DNA from: Chloroflexota bacterium
GTDB taxonomy: Bacteria > Chloroflexota > Anaerolineae > B4-G1
Direction: 5' to 3'
Assembly (NCBI GenBank): GCA_011048615.1
Contig: DSDT01000374.1
Span: 1-33,102, forward strand
DNA length: 33,102 nt
The notes beneath the pieces are model-generated. The model worked only from the letters and a program-made list of their open reading frames with translations. It did not search any database and was not told where the DNA came from. Within the stretch, counting starts at the first letter, position 1. Each line of letters begins with the position of its first letter. Positions 1,841 to 32,465 of the stretch are shown here, in pieces. The position numbers were made by a program, and so were the translations under genes.

Positions 1841-2582
1841 GAATCCAGTTGTCGTCGTACCGACCTACAACGAGGCCGAAAATGTCACCCCCATGGTCGA
1901 GGCTCTGCTCGCCCTGGGAATTCCCGATCTCGGTGTGCTGATCGTGGATGACGAGTCGCCCGACGGCACCGGGGCCATCGCAGATGACCTGGTCGCTCAG
2001 CACCCGAACCGGGTGCACGTGCTGCACCGCACCGGCCCTCGCGGGTTAGGGGTCGCTTACGTGGATGGGTTCCGCTGGGCGCTGGCCCATGGCGCGGACT
2101 ATGTCGTGCAGATGGACTGCGACTTTTCTCATTCGCCGGAATACATTCCCCAATTTCTCGCCCAGATACCGAATCACGACGTGGTGGTCGGTTCTCGCTA
2201 CGTGCGCGGCGGCCAAACAGACGAGGGGTGGGGCCGGGGCCGTTGGCTGCTCTCCTGGTGGGCCAACAGCATCTATACCCGGTTGATCCTGGGCGTCGAA
2301 ACCAAAGACACCACCGCCGGTTTCAAGTGCTGGCGACGCGAGACGCTGCACGGCATTGACTTGAGCCGGATTCATTCTCAGGGATACATCTTCCAGGTCG
2401 AAATGGCATACATCACTGAGCGATTGGGATATCGTGTTCTCGAGATCCCAATCTACTTCCCTGACCGCCAAGTGGGGCGCTCCAAGATGTCCATGAGCGT
2501 CAAAATCGAGGCGGCGATGCGAGTATGGCAAGTTCGCCAGCGTCACCACCGCCTACGACCGGCCGACCGGATCCCCGTATGA
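1841..2582 (+). CDS. Polyprenol monophosphomannose synthase-like (Dpm1-type GT2) glycosyltransferase
   Basis: VVVPTYNEAENVTPMVEALL...VLIVDDESPDGTGAIAD...VVGSRYVRGGQTDEGW...TKDTTAGFKCWRRETL; soluble GT2. GTG at 1841 is a plausible start (the ORF track begins at 1821). Confidence 0.88.
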
Positions 2583-5500
2583 TCCGTCGGTCACTGCCCG
2601 ACCTGGGCGCTCTCGTGCTCCTCCTGCTGCTGCCGCTGCTGTTGTACGCCCCCGTTGCGCTGGGCCCGCGCACGATGGTCCCGGCCGATGCCCTCTTTCT
2701 CTTCGAACCGTACCGGACCGCCGCTCCAGACTTTGGGATCACCTATCCCCACAATCAGCTGATTACGGATCTGGTGCTAGAGAACTATGCCTGGAAACAG
2801 TTCCTGGTCGAGTCGGTCCAGCAGCGCGAGCTGCCGCTGTGGGATCCGTATCTCTTTGCCGGCCATCCATTCCTGGCCAACGGACAGCACTCGGGGCTTT
2901 ATCCTCTGAGCGCCCTGTTCTACATCCTGCCCCTCTGGCGCGCTTATGGGGTTTTCGCCTGGCTGCAACTGGGCCTGGCTGGAATATTTGCGTACACGTT
3001 TGCCCGGGCGCTGGGTATGCGCCGCCTGGGCGGGCTGATCACAGGCATCACCTTCCAGTTCTGTGGATTTATGGTCGTCTCGTCTGCCGTGCACCCGATG
3101 ATCGTCGCCGGGGCTGCCTGGCTGCCTCTCATCCTGGCGATGGTCGAATTGATCGTCCAGCAGCGGCCTCTGTTCGGCAGACCCACGACGCTGCCGTGGG
3201 CATTGGTCGGTGCGCTCAGCCTCGGCTGCCAGATGCTCGGCGGTCACGCCGAGAACACCTACTTTGTGCTGCTGGTGACGGGGGCCTATGCGGCGTGGCG
3301 GTTGGCGGGACAGTTGAGACTGGGCTGCAGACCCATCGGCGCAGGGCGGGCGGCGACGTGGCTGGTCATAATGGCGGCGCTGGGGTTGGCGTTGGGAGCA
3401 ATCCAGTTCGTGCCCCTGTACGAAGTGGTGAACGGTAGTTTCCGCAGTGGGGAGGCGGCCGCCACCCTCGAACAGGTGTTGGGCTGGGCCTATCCCCCCC
3501 GCCGACTGCTCACCTTTGGCATCCCTAATTTTTTCGGCGGTCCAACCCAGCACGGCTACCTGGACCTCTTTACCTGGCGCTGGACTCCCGCCATGACCTT
3601 TCCCGATGGACAGTACATAGACTGGGGTGTCAAGAACTATGTCGAGGGCGGAGCCTACCTGGGGCTGCTGCCGTTGTTCCTGGCGCTCATCGCAGTGCTC
3701 CAGTGGCTCGCTCCTTTCGCCCGGCGGTTTACATCGCGCCTGACCTCTGGTTCTGCTCGCGACAGGTTGTATCCTGAATCTCGTCCCGGTCCCGGTCAAC
3801 ACGTCATTCCGTTCTTTGTCCTGCTGAGCGTCTTTTCGCTGGGCTGTATCTTTGGCACACCACTCTACGCCCTGGTCTATATCCTGCCGGGATTGGAACA
3901 GTCCCACTCGCCGTTCCGGTGGGTGTTCCCCCTGTCCCTCTCGGTGGCGGTGCTGGCCGGCCTGGGAATCGAGATGGTCGCCCGCAGCCGGAATCGCCAC
4001 CTGAGCCAGGAGACGGTTCGCCGGCCGCCTCGCGCTGTGCTCAACCTGCTGCTGTTCGGCGCCACCCCCTCCCTCGTCACCCTGTTCGCGGCCCTGGCCT
4101 TTTGGGGAGGTTTGGCGACGCTGACCGGGCTGCTCCTCAGCCGCCTCTTTTTTGCTCAGATCGAGCCGCTGGTCGCGCGGGCCTTTCTCTCGCTGGCCAA
4201 AGCGCCGGAAGCGTTCCCCGATCACCGCGCGTTTTACTCGTACGAGTTCAAGTGGATCGCGCTGTTCGGCCTGCTGCTGATGGGAACCGGCATCGTGCTG
4301 CGCGTCAGCCGCTGCCCCATCTACCTGCGCCGCCGGCCGGTGTGGGAATTTCTGGCCGTGGGGCTGCTGGTGTTGGACCTCGTGGCCTTTGGCGCAGGAT
4401 TCAACGCGGCGGTCGACCCGGCGCTGCTTGCCCATGTTCCCCCAGTGGCCGAGTTTCTGAAACAGGACCTCTCCCTCTGGCGGTACGCCACGTTCACCCC
4501 GCCCGGCACGACCAAGACGATGAATGCCAACGTCGGCATGTTCTACCAGTTCCAGTGCGTCGCCGGGTACGACTCCCTCTTCACCCACCGGTACGCTGAC
4601 TATATGGGGCTGATCGAGGAACAGGACGAGCGGCAGTACAACCGCATCGCCTCCTTCCGCCAATGGTCCAGCCTGGACAGCCCTCTTACCGACCTGCTCA
4701 ACGTCAAGTACGTCATCACCGAGGTAGAGATCCCCAATCCCAAATACAGGTTGGTTTATCAAGACACGGCGGTGCGGGTCTATGAGAACCTGGCGGCGAT
4801 GCCTCGGGCGTATACCCTCCCGTTTTCCGCTGCGCTGGAAGCCAGTGACTTGGCGAGGGTGGTGCAGGATCACGATTTGCGTCACTATGTTGTGCTCGAC
4901 CCCGGTATGTATCCGCTCGATTATATTTTCCCTCAGCCGGACGACGCCACCCCCCAGACCGTGGCTCGCTACGACATCAACGAGGTCGAGGTGGACGTGC
5001 AGGTCGACGTGGCCAGTTGGCTCGTTCTGGCCGATGCCTACTTTCCCGGCTGGAAAGCGTTCCTGCGGCCCCAGGGCGCGGGCGAGGAGGTCGAAGTCGA
5101 GGCTTTGGTCTACCGGGTGAACGGTGTCTTCCGAGGCGTGCTGTTGGCAGCACCGGGCGCGTACACAGTGCGCTTCAAGTACAGCCCCGACAGCGTCAAG
5201 ATCGGCGCCTTTGTCACCTTCATCGCCGGCATGGTGATCCTGTTCTTGATTGGGATCTATGTGTGGCGTTTTTTCTATCGCGAGGAGCCGGAGGGGGATG
5301 CTGCCAGTACAGTCAAGCGAGTGGCCAAGAACTCGATCGCGCCCATCGTCCTCAACCTGTTCAATCAGGCCATCCTCTTTGCCTTTGCTGCACTGATGGC
5401 CCGCGTCCTGGGCCCGGAGGGAACGGGCCGCTACGACACGGCCGTCGTCATCTATGGCTGGTTCGAGACGGTCGCCAACTTTGGGCTGGATATGTACCTG

Positions 5501-27388: not shown

Positions 27389-27568
27389 GTGTCCATCGTC
27401 GCCCTCTCGTGTCCGGCGTTTTATCTCGTACTGGCTCCCGCTGTGCCCAGACCCTAAACGATGGGTCTACTGCCGCTGCCGGTGTGGAGGCCGGACGTGT
27501 GGGTAGGAAACGGCCGCGGGATGAGGGGAACTCGGCATCTTCCTACTTTGACAATGGCACATTAGCGT

Positions 27569-27687
27569 CAGCAATTCCCGTTTTAGCATCGCCGTCACAC
27601 ATTTGACGTTCGTAGTGGCGACTTTAGTCGCTTCTATTGCGCAAACAGCGAAAGTCGCTACTACGAACTCCATAACGGGAATTGCTG
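27569..27687. mobile_element. Nested 119-bp MITE-like insertion with 14-bp perfect TIRs and a 9-bp target-site duplication
   Basis: CAGCAATTCCCGTT (27569-27582) / AACGGGAATTGCTG (27674-27687); flanked by CATTAGCGT at 27560-27568 and 27688-27696. Confidence 0.88.
27608..27668. repeat. Inner palindrome of the nested MITE
   Basis: GTTCGTAGTGGCGACTTT (27608-27625) / AAAGTCGCTACTACGAAC (27651-27668), 17 of 18 paired. Confidence 0.9.
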
Positions 27688-27719
27688 CATTAGCGTAAAA
27701 CCGCGCTTGTGGCGCAAAC

Positions 27720-27838
27720 GCCCGGCGATAAAGTCGCCGGGCTACGGAGCAGCGCCCGATTCATCGGGCTTAGGAGCCCCGTTCACGGGGCGAAAGCTCT
27801 GTAGCCGGGGCACTTTATGCCCTGGCGGGCCTTGCCCG
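27720..27838. repeat. Array of five adjacent short hairpins inside copy 1
   Basis: GCCCGGCGA-TAAAG-TCGCCGGGC (27720-27742); GCCCGAT-TC-ATCGGGC (27754-27769); GCCCCGT-TC-ACGGGGC (27776-27791); GCCGGGGCA-CTTTA-TGCCCTGGC (27804-27826); CGGGC-CTT-GCCCG (27826-27838). Confidence 0.9.
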
Positions 27839-28136
27839 GGAACTAGGCCGCCAAAGGTAGAATGTGCCATTGTCAAGCTACGGTCATTCCAGTGGCGGAG
27901 CTTTTGCCAACTCGCGCGTTATCTGGTAAAGTATGGGAGCGAGTTAGCAAGGGTCGGCCGTGGAGTTCTGGCGGCGGTCGGTATTCGGTAGGTGGATTTC
28001 GTACCCATGGTAGAGTTGAGAATCCGTCCTACATGTGGAGGGTATCGTCTGCGGCTGGGCTTGACTGGGGAGCATCCCCGTCGGCGCAGGGGGAGAAACC
28101 GGTGTAATTGGGCGTATCTTGTATTTGGAGGGTTCC

Positions 28137-28850
28137 GTGTCTGAGACTGAAAATCAAAGGGAGAATAACGACAGTTGGAAACAGCATTTCAAACAGGGTA
28201 TGATGCACGGGAACGTTGGAAGCACGGACCAAGCGATGGCGAGTTTTCGCCAGGCTATCGAGTTGGCGCCGGATGAGCCGTATCCCCATTACGAACTGGG
28301 GTACACGCTGTTCCGCCAGGGGCAGTACGAGGAGGCGCTTCACGAGCTGCGGACTACCGACGCGCTCTCTCCCGGTTTTTTCCAAGTTCAGACCGAAATC
28401 TACCTGTGCGAGTGCATGGCAGCCGGCAAGGTCGGCCTCGATGGGCTGGAAGTGCTGCGGATGCTCAAACAATTGGCAGACCTCGGCGTGGCTCAGAGCG
28501 AGGAGGCGGTCGCCCTCAGTCGTCGCGCCGTCGAGTTGGCGCCCTCCTGTGCGCTGGGTTACCTGCACCTCGGTCAGGCGCTGTGGGAGACCAACCCCCC
28601 CATCGCCGAAAAGGCGCTGCTCCACTGCCTCAAACTGCAGCCCGACGACACGACGGTCATCAACGCCAAGATGTACTTGGGAATGATTCGGCAGGCCAAG
28701 GGCGAGTTGGACGCGGCTCGCCAAATCTGGCAGGTGGTAGTGGACGAGTACGAGGGGAATCCCCATGTCAAGATGTGCCAGGTGCTGCTATCCAGGCACG
28801 AACCCACCACCTCTCAGGGCGAGGAGAAGGCGAGCAGCAGCAATGGGTGA
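28137..28850 (+). CDS. Tetratricopeptide repeat protein
   Basis: ASFRQAIELAPDEPYPHYELGYTLFRQGQYEEALHELR and SRRAVELAPSCALGYLHLGQALWE TPR units; GTG 28137 after GGAGGG. Confidence 0.85.
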   Translation: MSETENQRENNDSWKQHFKQGMMHGNVGSTDQAMASFRQAIELAPDEPYPHYELGYTLFRQGQYEEALHELRTTDALSPGFFQVQTEIYLCECMAAGKVGLDGLEVLRMLKQLADLGVAQSEEAVALSRRAVELAPSCALGYLHLGQALWETNPPIAEKALLHCLKLQPDDTTVINAKMYLGMIRQAKGELDAARQIWQVVVDEYEGNPHVKMCQVLLSRHEPTTSQGEEKASSSNG

Positions 28851-29136
28851 GAATATCCTGATTGACGTCAGCGGGTGGGTCGGCGTCGTGGCGCTGCTCC
28901 TAGCCTATGTCCTGGTCTCGACGAGGAAAATCGAGGGGGATTCGAGCTCCTATCAACTGCTGAACGCCGTCGGCAGTGGTTTGCTGATCCTCAATTCCTA
29001 TTACTACGGCGCATACCCATCGGTAGCGGTCAACGTCGTGTGGATCGGCATCGCCGTCTATACCATGATGCGGGTCAGGTCCAAGACCAGGTCCGGGTCA
29101 GGGACGGGATGCGCTGGCGGCCCGGTAGAGGAATAA
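28843..29136 (+). CDS. CBU_0592-like small membrane protein
   Basis: IDVSGWVGVVALLLAYVLVSTRKIEGDSSSYQLLNAVGSGLLILNSYYYGAYPSVAVNVVWIGIAVY; overlaps the TPR gene end. Confidence 0.8.
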   Translation: MGENILIDVSGWVGVVALLLAYVLVSTRKIEGDSSSYQLLNAVGSGLLILNSYYYGAYPSVAVNVVWIGIAVYTMMRVRSKTRSGSGTGCAGGPVEE

Positions 29137-29137
29137 A

Positions 29138-29175
29138 AAACACCGCAGGGTCTGCGGAGCAACCCTGCGGTGTTT
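29138..29175 (-). terminator. Hairpin terminator, oriented for the minus-strand csp-RRM operon
   Basis: AAACACCGCAGGGT (29138-29151) / ACCCTGCGGTGTTT (29162-29175), perfect 14 bp; minus-strand continuation is TTT-ATTC. Confidence 0.85.
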
Positions 29176-29195
29176 GCGGTTAGAGTGGATTGACT

Positions 29196-29492
29196 CTACC
29201 AGCGACGACGACGTCCGCCGCTGCCACCGCCACCCCGGTCGTCCCTTCTTGGCCGCGCTTCGGCTACCTTGATGGGTCGTCCATCTACATCTCGACCGTC
29301 GAGTTGGCTAATGGCCTCTTGAGCGGCATCATCTTCTGACAGCTCGACGAACGCAAAGCCCTTGGACCGTCCCGTCATCCGATCTGTGATGAGGTTCACG
29401 GATAGCACGTTTCCGATTTCCTCAAAGAGTTCAGACAGTGTGGCCTCGGTTGTCGCGTAATTGAGATTACCGACATATAGTTTCTTTGCCAT
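29196..29492 (-). CDS. RRM-domain RNA-binding protein with Gly/Arg-rich tail
   Basis: KKLYVGNLNYATTEATLSELFEEIG (RNP2) and RSKGFAFVEL (RNP1), tail RRDDRGGGGSGGRRRRW. Confidence 0.95.
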   Translation of the reverse strand: MAKKLYVGNLNYATTEATLSELFEEIGNVLSVNLITDRMTGRSKGFAFVELSEDDAAQEAISQLDGRDVDGRPIKVAEARPRRDDRGGGGSGGRRRRW

Positions 29493-29529
29493 GTTTTCTC
29501 CAAGTGCGGTTGCAGCCGCACAAATCTGC

Positions 29530-29739
29530 CTACAGAACCCTCACATGGACGGCCTGCAGTCCCTTGGGACCTTGTTCAACGCTGAATTCGACGCTCTGTT
29601 CCTCGCGTAATGAACGGAATCCCTCTCCCTCGATGGCCGAATAGTGGACGAATACGTCCTCTTTACCCTCGCGGGAGATAAACCCGTATCCCTTTGCATC
29701 ATTGAACCACTTGACGGTTCCGATTTCCCTTTCACTCAC
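29530..29739 (-). CDS. Cold-shock (CspA-family) protein
   Basis: [30 protein letters not shown], 69 aa, canonical CSD RNP motifs. Confidence 0.97.
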
Positions 29740-29770
29740 CTTACTTTACTCCTTAACTTTACATGATTCT

Positions 29771-29859
29771 GGACAAAGTAGCACAGGCAGAACAAAAAAA
29801 CTGCTCAATCTCCGCAAGCTTGGACAGTTTTTGTTATACAGCCAAAACTTACTTTGTCC
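29771..29859 (-). promoter_or_regulatory. Nested long-range hairpin in the presumed 5' UTR of csp
   Basis: Outer GGACAAAGTA (29771-29780) / TACTTTGTCC (29850-29859); inner AACAAAAAAACTG (29791-29803) / CAGTTTTTGTT (29825-29835). Confidence 0.65.
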
Positions 29860-29869
29860 TAACGCTGAT

Positions 29870-29898
29870 ATTCTACCATACCTTGGCAGAACCGCCAA
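29870..29898 (-). promoter_or_regulatory. Candidate sigma70 promoter for csp-RRM
   Basis: Minus strand TTGGCG (29898-29893) - 17 nt - TAGAAT (29875-29870), just upstream of the nested hairpin. Confidence 0.55.
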
Positions 29899-29910
29899 AT
29901 GGGATGGGAT

Positions 29911-29939
29911 TTGAAGTTTCACGGGATTTGTGCTATCAT
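29911..29939 (+). promoter_or_regulatory. Candidate sigma70 promoter for the HD hydrolase
   Basis: TTGAAG (29911-29916) - 17 nt - TATCAT (29934-29939). Confidence 0.5.
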
Positions 29940-30091
29940 CCCCCATGTGGACGTGAGGGGCGACCAACCCATCATCTTTATGCCATACGGTTCAATCAGG
30001 ATTTCGAGGGATAGATCAGGCAGATTGGCGATCCGTACTATGGTGCTTGACCGGATTGATCTTCTTGCCCGGTCGAAAGAGAGTCGACGAG

Positions 30092-30697
30092 ATGCCAGAA
30101 TACGTTGACCAGGCCAAGCTCACGGCGCGGTTCGAGCAGGCCCTGATATATGCCACTCGCCTCCACGCCCGGCAGGTTAGGAAAGCATCTCAAGTGCCGT
30201 ATATTGTACATTTGCTCAGTACGGCTGCCCTCGTGGTCGAAGATGGGGGCGACGAGGACGAGGCTATCGCGGCTCTGTTACACGATGCCATCGAGGATCA
30301 GGGAGGGGACGAGATTCGCCAAGAGATTCGCTGTCGGTTTGGCGACCGGGTGAGGGCTATCGTGGATGGCTGTACCGATGCGGATGTGCAGCCGAAACCA
30401 CCCTGGCGCGAGCGGAAAGAGAGGTTTCTTGCCTCGTTGGTCCATGCCTCGACCGAAGTGCGTCGTGTGACGGCCGCCGACAAACTTCACAACGTCCGAT
30501 CCATTCTCCTGGAATTCCGGGAGCATGGGGATGCCATTTGGCCGCGCTTCAACGGTGGCAAGAAAGGCACCCTCTGGTACTATCGTGCGGTGGTCCGGGC
30601 GCTTCAAACTGTTGAAGCCCGGGAGGAGACGCGCACTCAACTGGTTGGGGAACTGGATCGGGCTGTCACAGAACTGGAAACTCTGATCCGGAGTTAA
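30092..30697 (+). CDS. HD-domain hydrolase (SpoT/MESH1-like ppGpp hydrolase family)
   Basis: ALIYATRLHARQVRKASQVPYIVHLLSTAALV, AIAALLHDAIEDQGG (HD), AADKLHNVRSIL; ATG at 30092 (the ORF track starts at 30047). Confidence 0.85.
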   Translation: MPEYVDQAKLTARFEQALIYATRLHARQVRKASQVPYIVHLLSTAALVVEDGGDEDEAIAALLHDAIEDQGGDEIRQEIRCRFGDRVRAIVDGCTDADVQPKPPWRERKERFLASLVHASTEVRRVTAADKLHNVRSILLEFREHGDAIWPRFNGGKKGTLWYYRAVVRALQTVEAREETRTQLVGELDRAVTELETLIRS

Positions 30698-30754
30698 TAA
30701 TCGCCGGTTCGATCCCAGATCAGGACTAATAATCAAACCGAGGAGGAGCAGCAC

Positions 30755-32272
30755 ATGGACGTACACGTCATCCCTGGAGTCATTCAGGAGAGCGATGCCG
30801 ACGCTATTGTCGTCAATCTGTTCGAGGATGTGCAGCATCCCGGCGGCGCCACTGGGGCTGTCGATGCCGCGTTGAACGGTGCGATTGACGAGTTGATCGC
30901 CAGCGGTGATTTCACTGGCCAGGTCGGACAGGTGGCCGTGTTGTATCCCCGGGGTGCGATCCCGGCCCGGCGTGTCATCCTGGTGGGGCTCGGGCCGCGG
31001 GCCGAGTTCTACGCCGACCCGGCCGAGGGGGTGCGCCGTGCGGCGGCCAGCGCCATCCAAAAAGCACGCGACCTCGAGACCAAGCGTGTGGTCAGCATTC
31101 TCCACGGCGCTGGGGCCGGCGGTCTTTCTGTCGAGGATGCGGCCCGGGCTGTTGTAGAGGGAAGCTTGCTAGGGTTGTACGAGTATCAAGGTCAAAAGAC
31201 CGAGGCCCATTCCAAGGAACCGCCCCAGGTTTTGGAGCTGGTGATTTTCGGTGAGGAGGACGTACCCGCCGCTCAGCAGGGTGTGGAGAGAGGGTGCGTC
31301 ATCGCCCAAAGCGTCGCTCTGACGCGCGATCTGGTCAATCTGCCGCCCAACATCTGCACCCCGGCCTACCTGGCCCAGACCGCCGCCGAGGTGGCCGCCG
31401 AGGTGGGGCTGGACGTTCGTGTGCTGGACCGCGAGCAGATGGAAGCCCTGAACATGGGCGCGCTGTTGGCCGTGGCCCAGGGCAGCGATGCGCCTCCCAA
31501 GTTCATCATCCTGGAGCACAACGCCGACCGCTCCGACGAATTGGATACCCTCGTGCTGGTCGGTAAGGGGATTACCTTCGATACGGGGGGGTACAGCCTC
31601 AAGGGCCATGAAGGGATGGCCACGATGAAGACCGATATGGCCGGCGCGGCAGTCGTCATCGGTGCACTGCGGGCCATTGGAATGCTCGATCTGCCTCTGC
31701 ACGTGGTTGGCCTGACCCCGGCTTCCGATAACATGATCAGTGGTCGGGCCTACCGTCCCCAAGAAGTCGTCACTGCCAGCAACGGCGCTACCATCGAGAT
31801 CAAATCTACCGATGCCGAGGGGCGCATGCTCCTGGCCGACGCCCTGGTCTATGCCCGGCGGTTCGAACCGACTGCAGTGGTGGACATTGCCACGCTGACC
31901 GGCGCGTGTGTCGTCGCCCTGGGCAAGGGGATTGCGGCGGGTCTCTTTAGCACTGACGACGCACTGCGAGACGCTCTCCTGGGTGCCAGCAAGGCTACGG
32001 CCGAAAAGCTCTGGCCTCTGCCCCTGTTTCCCGAATACAAGAAGCGGCTCGAATCCCAAACGGCGGACCTGCGGAACAGTGCCGACCGAATGGACGGAGT
32101 GGGAACCTCGGCCACGTTCCTCAAGCAGTTCGTGGATTATCCGGCCTGGGCCCACGTGGATATGGCAGGGATGGCCTATGGCATCAAGGGCATTCCGTAC
32201 ATCCCAGAAAAGAGCAGCACTGGCTTTGGCGTGCGCCTGTTCGTCGAGTTGGCGCGGCGCTGGAAGCGTTGA
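30755..32272 (+). CDS. pepA: Leucyl aminopeptidase (M17)
   Basis: VGKGITFDTGGYSLKGHEGMATMKTDMAGAA and STDAEGRMLLADALVYA, the M17 metal/active-site signatures. Confidence 0.95.
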   Translation: MDVHVIPGVIQESDADAIVVNLFEDVQHPGGATGAVDAALNGAIDELIASGDFTGQVGQVAVLYPRGAIPARRVILVGLGPRAEFYADPAEGVRRAAASAIQKARDLETKRVVSILHGAGAGGLSVEDAARAVVEGSLLGLYEYQGQKTEAHSKEPPQVLELVIFGEEDVPAAQQGVERGCVIAQSVALTRDLVNLPPNICTPAYLAQTAAEVAAEVGLDVRVLDREQMEALNMGALLAVAQGSDAPPKFIILEHNADRSDELDTLVLVGKGITFDTGGYSLKGHEGMATMKTDMAGAAVVIGALRAIGMLDLPLHVVGLTPASDNMISGRAYRPQEVVTASNGATIEIKSTDAEGRMLLADALVYARRFEPTAVVDIATLTGACVVALGKGIAAGLFSTDDALRDALLGASKATAEKLWPLPLFPEYKKRLESQTADLRNSADRMDGVGTSATFLKQFVDYPAWAHVDMAGMAYGIKGIPYIPEKSSTGFGVRLFVELARRWKR

Positions 32273-32325
32273 CTCGTGCGAGTCTGTCCCGTCAGATCAG
32301 CGGTTCTCTTGCCTGGGCTGATTAT

Positions 32326-32449
32326 CTTGACAATGTCAGATTAGAAAACAGGACACGGATTTTCGCGGATGCATACAGATACCTGTGATTCTTATCCGTG
32401 AAAATCCGTGTCCGAAACATTGTTTGCACTGAAATGTGATATTGTCAAG
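32326..32449. mobile_element. MITE-like element, copy 2: TIRs CTTGACAATGTCAGATT / AATGTGATATTGTCAAG with TTAT direct repeats
   Basis: TIRs 15 of 17 matching (CTTGACAAT perfect); 4-bp flanks TTAT 32322-32325 and 32450-32453; related to copy 1 in both ends. Confidence 0.72.
32351..32413. repeat. Inner palindrome of copy 2
   Basis: GGACACGGATTTTCGCGGAT (32351-32370) / ATCCGTGAAAATCCGTGTCC (32394-32413), 19 of 20 paired. Confidence 0.9.
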
Positions 32450-32465
32450 TTATCCTGGGGCGGGT

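Follow-up and report, generated by a model that had tools for sequence, protein, structure and literature searches.

Two short elements in the analysed stretch of DNA (33,102 nt, hereafter the window) are, judged from their sequences, non-coding type II MITEs with the ends of an IS701-family insertion sequence. For the family as a whole we consider it quite probable that IS701-end type II MITEs are mobilised in trans and carry a replaceable, nearly always palindromic cassette. The same ends surround about 30 different interiors, and some of these interiors are also found between unrelated ends; the ends and what they enclose thus act as modules independent of each other.

Two Mini-Elements in the Window

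The window represents contig 7 of a 3.94-Mb genome in 425 contigs (G000, 92% complete). Every sequence that an earlier, sequence-only reading had assigned to the two elements (copies 1 and 2) is present where it had placed it. The features are as follows.

27543–27546, no strand: target-site duplication CTAC, left, copy 1 (the family as a rule duplicates 4 bp)
27547–27877, plus strand: copy 1, IS701-end MITE of family A, 331 bp, with a second MITE nested in it
27547–27563, plus strand: left terminal inverted repeat (TIR) TTTGACAATGGCACATT of copy 1, 16 bp of it identical in the parent IS
27560–27568, no strand: 9-bp target duplication CATTAGCGT, left, of the nested element
27569–27687, plus strand: nested MITE of family D, TIR CAGCAATTCCCGTT, interior GTAGTGGCGACTTTAGTCGC...ACTACGAAC, with near-identical copies elsewhere in the genome
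27688–27696, no strand: 9-bp target duplication CATTAGCGT, right, of the nested element
27697–27860, plus strand: family-A cargo, a GC-rich hairpin array with its core at 27719–27826, the hairpins lying within a CTACGGAGC/GCTCTGTAG closing stem
27861–27877, minus strand: right TIR CTTGACAATGGCACATT of copy 1
27878–27881, no strand: target-site duplication CTAC, right, copy 1
32322–32325, no strand: target-site duplication TTAT, left, copy 2
32326–32449, plus strand: copy 2, IS701-end MITE of family B, 124 bp
32326–32342, plus strand: left TIR CTTGACAATGTCAGATT of copy 2
32351–32413, no strand: family-B cargo, GGACACGGATTTTCGCGGAT / ATCCGTGAAAATCCGTGTCC palindrome with arms at 32351–32370 and 32394–32413
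32433–32449, minus strand: right TIR CTTGACAATATCACATT of copy 2
32450–32453, no strand: target-site duplication TTAT, right, copy 2

In copy 1 the terminal base at 27547 is followed by 16 bp of inverted repeat (27548–27563 versus 27861–27876) that are 100% complementary. When the motif CTTGACAATGNCACATT was searched with up to three mismatches, its only matches in the window were the four ends of copies 1 and 2; the chance expectation for the window is 0.10, and four matches were reached in no shuffle. Both interiors fold far better than their shuffles (z of -8.0 for copy 2 and -4.4 for copy 1), and copy 2, which is flanked by convergent reading frames, can fold end to end. No Rfam family reached the gathering threshold in the window and four related loci. 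An outward promoter in the TIR was considered as well and rejected, the TTGACA hexamers facing inward and consensus matches not being evidence.

The nested element of copy 1 is complete, with 14-bp ends of its own and a 9-bp duplication, and has at least 33 copies in the genome. Its removal restores ATTAGCGTAAAAC, in agreement with the sequence-only reading; many further family-A copies lack an interruption at this position and represent empty sites. At least one family-D copy has a different interior. Two solo family-D ends were followed in the search for a full-length parent; one led to another D-ended mini-element, whose interior differs, and a transposase could not be recognised.

Copies in the Host Genome and a Full-Length Parent

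The two elements had been described as a two-copy family, which is correct within the window but not genome-wide. The terminal motif TTGACAATNNCANATT (16 bp) has 45 exact matches in the host genome, compared to none for the reversed control. Family A, with its GC-rich hairpin array, accounts for about 24 matches with at least 87% identity and for weaker matches to the interior only, and family B, with its GGACACGGATT palindrome, is found at about 10 places. The interiors of the two families are unrelated to each other in spite of the common ends.

A search for a transposase-bearing copy with the same TIRs, which had been proposed as a check, revealed a full-length parent in the host, where two matches to the terminal motif lie 1.6 kb apart. 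It is located at positions 2557–4171 of locus L031 (1615 bp including the terminal bases), is flanked by a TTAA target duplication, and has 16-bp TIRs that are 100% identical to those of copy 1. The encoded transposase of 465 aa scores 208.2 bits against the NCBIfam IS701 model NF033540 (cut-off 150) and 97.9 bits against Pfam DDE_5 (cut-off 27). It is the sole intact transposase of its type found in the host genome. DNA searches of the host genome with families A and B gave no match inside the parent on contig C179. Copies 1 and 2 thus share just the ends with the parent, and therefore they are classified as type II MITEs.

IS701 elements generate target duplications of exactly four bases, have a published length of 1400–1550 bp, and have the terminal consensus ---YACT-Y--YR, which is said not to cover the whole family (PMC2266710). 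The parent agrees with this family in its above-cut-off transposase match and its 4-bp duplication. It differs in its length of 1615 bp and in its end CTTGACAATGGCACATT, which lies outside the YACT consensus, itself not family-wide. Two relatives have divergent IS701 elements with full TIR pairs (48% and 59% identity), and the parent transposase had no match in several MITE-bearing relatives. As the host has one intact transposase and several relatives have no match, some of the MITEs may be relics or may be moved by a transposase that has diverged too far for such a match.

Evidence for Insertion

The sequence-only reading had also suggested looking for further copies and tabulating their 4-bp flanks. 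Many further copies exist in the host genome and in other genomes. Among the loci collected, 82 distinct mini-elements have both ends, and 81 of these have both flanks. Perfect 4-bp duplications surround 55 of the 81, and at least three positions match in 69; nearly all follow the pattern NTAN. When the compared 4-mers were shifted outward, only 0–1 of about 80 controls showed a duplication.

Empty sites, likewise proposed as a check, were obtained for one copy of family A and for the nested element; none was obtained for copy 1 as a whole or for copy 2. The family-A element in L001 (contig 3) interrupts a repeat of which uninterrupted paralogous copies are present in L086, L104, L092, and L099. 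GTAA is single at these four empty sites and duplicated around the L001 element; the L086 copy aligns with 91.5% identity over 142 bp, free of gaps. Upstream of copy 2 lies an aminopeptidase gene with orthologues in G006 and G002; the downstream region is not syntenic, so that the site does not permit an exact comparison.

Many contigs terminate in these elements. This behaviour is expected of repeats when a MAG is assembled from short reads, and it could be taken to mean that the family is an assembly artefact or a set of chance repeats. However, the same termini and duplications occur in independent assemblies, including those of archaea and other bacterial phyla, and complete flanked copies lie inside contigs, which leaves this explanation with a negligible probability.

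Interiors Are Diverse and Palindromic

Among 119 genomes of relatives, 23 contain the terminal motif. Different palindromes lie between the motifs in G002, G023, G025, G026, G027, G028, G043, G058, G085, G093, and G102, and a few classes are common to neighbours. A GTDB-wide pattern scan gave at least 115 stretches. Among the matches listed, elements with both ends are found in Anaerolineae, Parabeggiatoa, Methanothrix, Nitrospirae, Calditrichaceae, and Deltaproteobacteria, and their palindromes are again lineage-specific; some single motif matches in distant phyla, among the same matches, are probably due to chance.

The interiors of the collected mini-elements form 30 sequence clusters across bacteria and archaea. 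Across 28 cluster representatives the DNA fold z has a median of -3.5, compared to -0.06 in 97 length-matched flank segments (Mann-Whitney p = 2.5e-12), and 27 of the 28 representatives fold better than their own shuffles. The same excess of interiors over flanks is seen in the length of the longest inverted repeat. Some of this excess may have arisen because palindromic elements survive or are detected preferentially. The earlier proposal that one terminal module carries differing palindromic interiors is supported by the 30 clusters and by interiors that are far more palindromic than the flanks.

Cassettes Shared Between Unrelated Ends

Matches to the family-A interior alone led to a second MITE family of the host, which has the ends GTAA[C/G]CGTTCAG and 8-bp duplications; the duplications are perfect in 7 of the 12 listed pairings. 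GTAA tips and 8-bp duplications are also traits of IS66-type elements, so that these may be IS66-derived MITEs. Their interiors in the host include an array homologous to that of family A, a palindrome homologous to that of family B, and a third class. The local alignment score of the A array with its GTAA-ended counterpart is 71–72 (shuffle maximum 30), and that of the B palindrome is 32–41 (shuffle maximum 24), the latter homology being based on a 28-bp match. The negative pairings (A versus B-like and B versus A-like interiors) stay at chance level. In SuakinDeep_MAG45_1 a cassette is common to L245, which has IS701 ends, and L311, which has GTAA ends (score 51, shuffle maximum 25). The Anaerolineae MAG T11_maxbin2_scaf2bin.315 contains the A cassette with neither IS701 nor GTAA ends around it. 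This occurrence of cargo classes between other termini is a point beyond the reach of the sequence-only reading.

The elements might be ordinary MITEs only, with decayed or random filler between IS ends that was amplified by chance and without any modular cargo. Type II MITEs with interiors unrelated to the parent are indeed well known (PMC10969869), and the copy number per genome may reflect the amplification of one or two founders. However, nearly all cluster representatives fold better than their own shuffles, the set differs from the flanks at p of about 2e-12, and two cassette classes are found again between unrelated ends in the host, as is a third in another MAG. We therefore regard this explanation as unlikely.

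Another possibility is that mobility resides in the palindromes, which would be REP-like, would be moved by a RAYT or by another system, and would land in existing MITEs. The cassette hairpins are often, not in all cargo classes, GTAG/CTAC-tagged like REPs. REP dimers within longer palindromes have been described, namely GTAG-15 of A. variabilis, GTAG-23 of T. roseum, and CGTC-1 of H. neapolitanus (PMC3733652). The A cassette without either type of end would also fit, as would L181, in which two palindromes lie within one TIR pair. However, a RAYT match (NF047646) is absent from the four TIR-rich genomes G000 (the host), G002, G025, and G027, in contrast to 34 of the 48 genomes scanned that have one, a difference that was seen post hoc in incomplete genomes. 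Furthermore, cassettes bounded by TIRs outnumber free-standing ones, in a collection that is biased towards TIRs. The missing match speaks against a RAYT as the present mover in the host genome, and a RAYT-driven origin of its palindromes is not supported. Actively moving palindromes thus appear a rather doubtful explanation overall.

A third alternative is selection for structure, in which an interior that extrudes a hairpin is favoured irrespective of its origin, either because the two ends of a very short element are thereby brought together or because the hairpin serves as a harmless terminator or RNA stabiliser between genes. In the A cassette, three base pairs are changed on both sides with pairing kept across the three contexts, a modest signal from 14 related sequences. 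Compensatory changes can also be read from the sequences of L231 and L304, which are apparently orthologous, and the position and end-to-end fold of copy 2 point in the same direction. However, structure alone leaves the homologous cassettes behind unrelated ends unexplained, and template-switch correction of palindromes yields the same pattern without selection. As a full account, selection for structure can be held only tentatively.

Proposed Mechanism and Relation to Known Systems

In the preferred model of trans-mobilised IS701-end MITEs with replaceable cassettes, the transposase of the full-length IS701 of the host, or of lost relatives, would recognise the ends of about 17 bp in trans. 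The mini-element would be inserted with a 4-bp NTAN duplication, and any DNA between two 17-bp ends might be movable. The interior would be a replaceable cassette, nearly always with at least one palindrome. Which palindromes the ends acquired would have varied from lineage to lineage, and MITEs with the unrelated GTAA-tipped ends and 8-bp duplications carry these classes too. New mini-elements may originate from a pre-existing genomic palindrome that becomes flanked by the ends or inserts between them, and not from decay of the IS. They may be retained because a hairpin interior is harmless between genes, or because its extrusion helps ends that are 100–200 bp apart to meet. Mobilisation by the terminal module is what we infer from these sequence comparisons. 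A wider proposal would be a cross-genome pool of palindromic cassettes that pass as independent modules between unrelated IS ends (IS701-type, GTAA-ended, and 9-bp-duplication), with the hairpin being required for efficient movement of short elements, e.g., by juxtaposing the ends through extrusion; this we offer as a speculation that is more probably wrong than right.

MITEs, type II MITEs, and IS701 elements are established knowledge. Type II MITEs of bacterial IS elements are short, non-coding, TIR-bounded, and multicopy, have target duplications, and differ from the parent IS in their interior (PMC10969869). All of these traits apply to copies 1 and 2. However, the families described in the literature searched have one core each that decays in size, whereas here one set of ends has about 30 unrelated interiors, which are nearly all palindromic and are in part shared with MITEs of other ends. 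The likeness to REP and BIME sequences with RAYTs comprises GC-rich, GTAG/CTAC-tagged hairpins, arrays, and inverted pairs; in contrast, the present elements are bounded by IS-type TIRs with duplications, and the host lacks a RAYT match. With the REP dimers they have in common a palindrome within a larger inverted repeat; the passage on them describes one REP family per outer palindrome and reports no IS link (PMC3733652), whereas here one IS-derived set of ends has many cargoes in different phyla. The TIR sequence was not found in the literature searched, nor was anything relevant on the four common cargo palindromes, the search having covered mostly non-subscription literature. Within that literature, modular exchange of palindromic interiors at the present scale appears to be undescribed.

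Because many contigs end in these repeats, they account for part of the fragmentation of such MAGs. One conserved pair of ends with dozens of unrelated palindromic interiors, some of which cross between end families, represents a natural experiment that separates the function of the ends from that of the interior. It also offers a route by which the abundant unexplained palindromes of genomes could become dispersed while lacking their own transposase.

Hairpin interiors and element ends

In the relative genome G025, which carries MITEs with IS701-type ends, two unlike palindromes, of the GGGGTTTTGCAGGC and CACGAATTAACACGAA classes, lie inside a single TIR pair (locus L181, 276-529), as if one palindrome had been inserted beside the other. 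A lone TIR is present in the same genome near position 466 of locus L191 (contig C168), immediately upstream of GGGGATGAAATGGCTTCGACGGGG, which from its sequence looks like the start of a tmRNA gene. Elements at L231 2718-2837 and L304 3454-3573, from two Chloroflexi MAGs, are apparently an orthologous insertion, a long palindrome whose arms differ between the two loci through compensatory changes.

In the host genome (G000), a GGACGCGGATTTTCGCAGAT palindrome of class B occurs at L371, L375 and L377 (contigs C40, C209 and C372), in every case at a contig end, and its surrounding ends are apparently of yet another type, CTGGA[C/G]TCTGGCAAATT. The GTAA-ended MITEs of this genome include a third interior class, CAGGTGCGACGCACTTG...AAGTGCGTCGCACCTG (L085, L093, L095, L099 and L103), and several of these copies have perfect 8-bp duplications. 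A separate repeat family with a ACCGCAGAGCGCGC...CTCTGTGGGCTCTGCGGT palindrome (L086 1311-1452, L104, L092, L099 and L001) often adjoins GTAA-ended elements, and one of its members is the target of a family-A insertion.

The family-D MITE

Family-D ends likewise enclose another interior in G000: the element at L391 186-381 (contig C123), with flanks agreeing at 8/9 positions, has a hairpin interior unlike that of the nested copy, comprising the GTTTCGAACGCAC class and others. The MITE nested at window positions 27569-27687 has at least 33 matches in G000, with 88-100% identity (most 97-100%), and forms the terminus of many assembly contigs. Its great abundance and near identity show that this MITE has undergone recent amplification.
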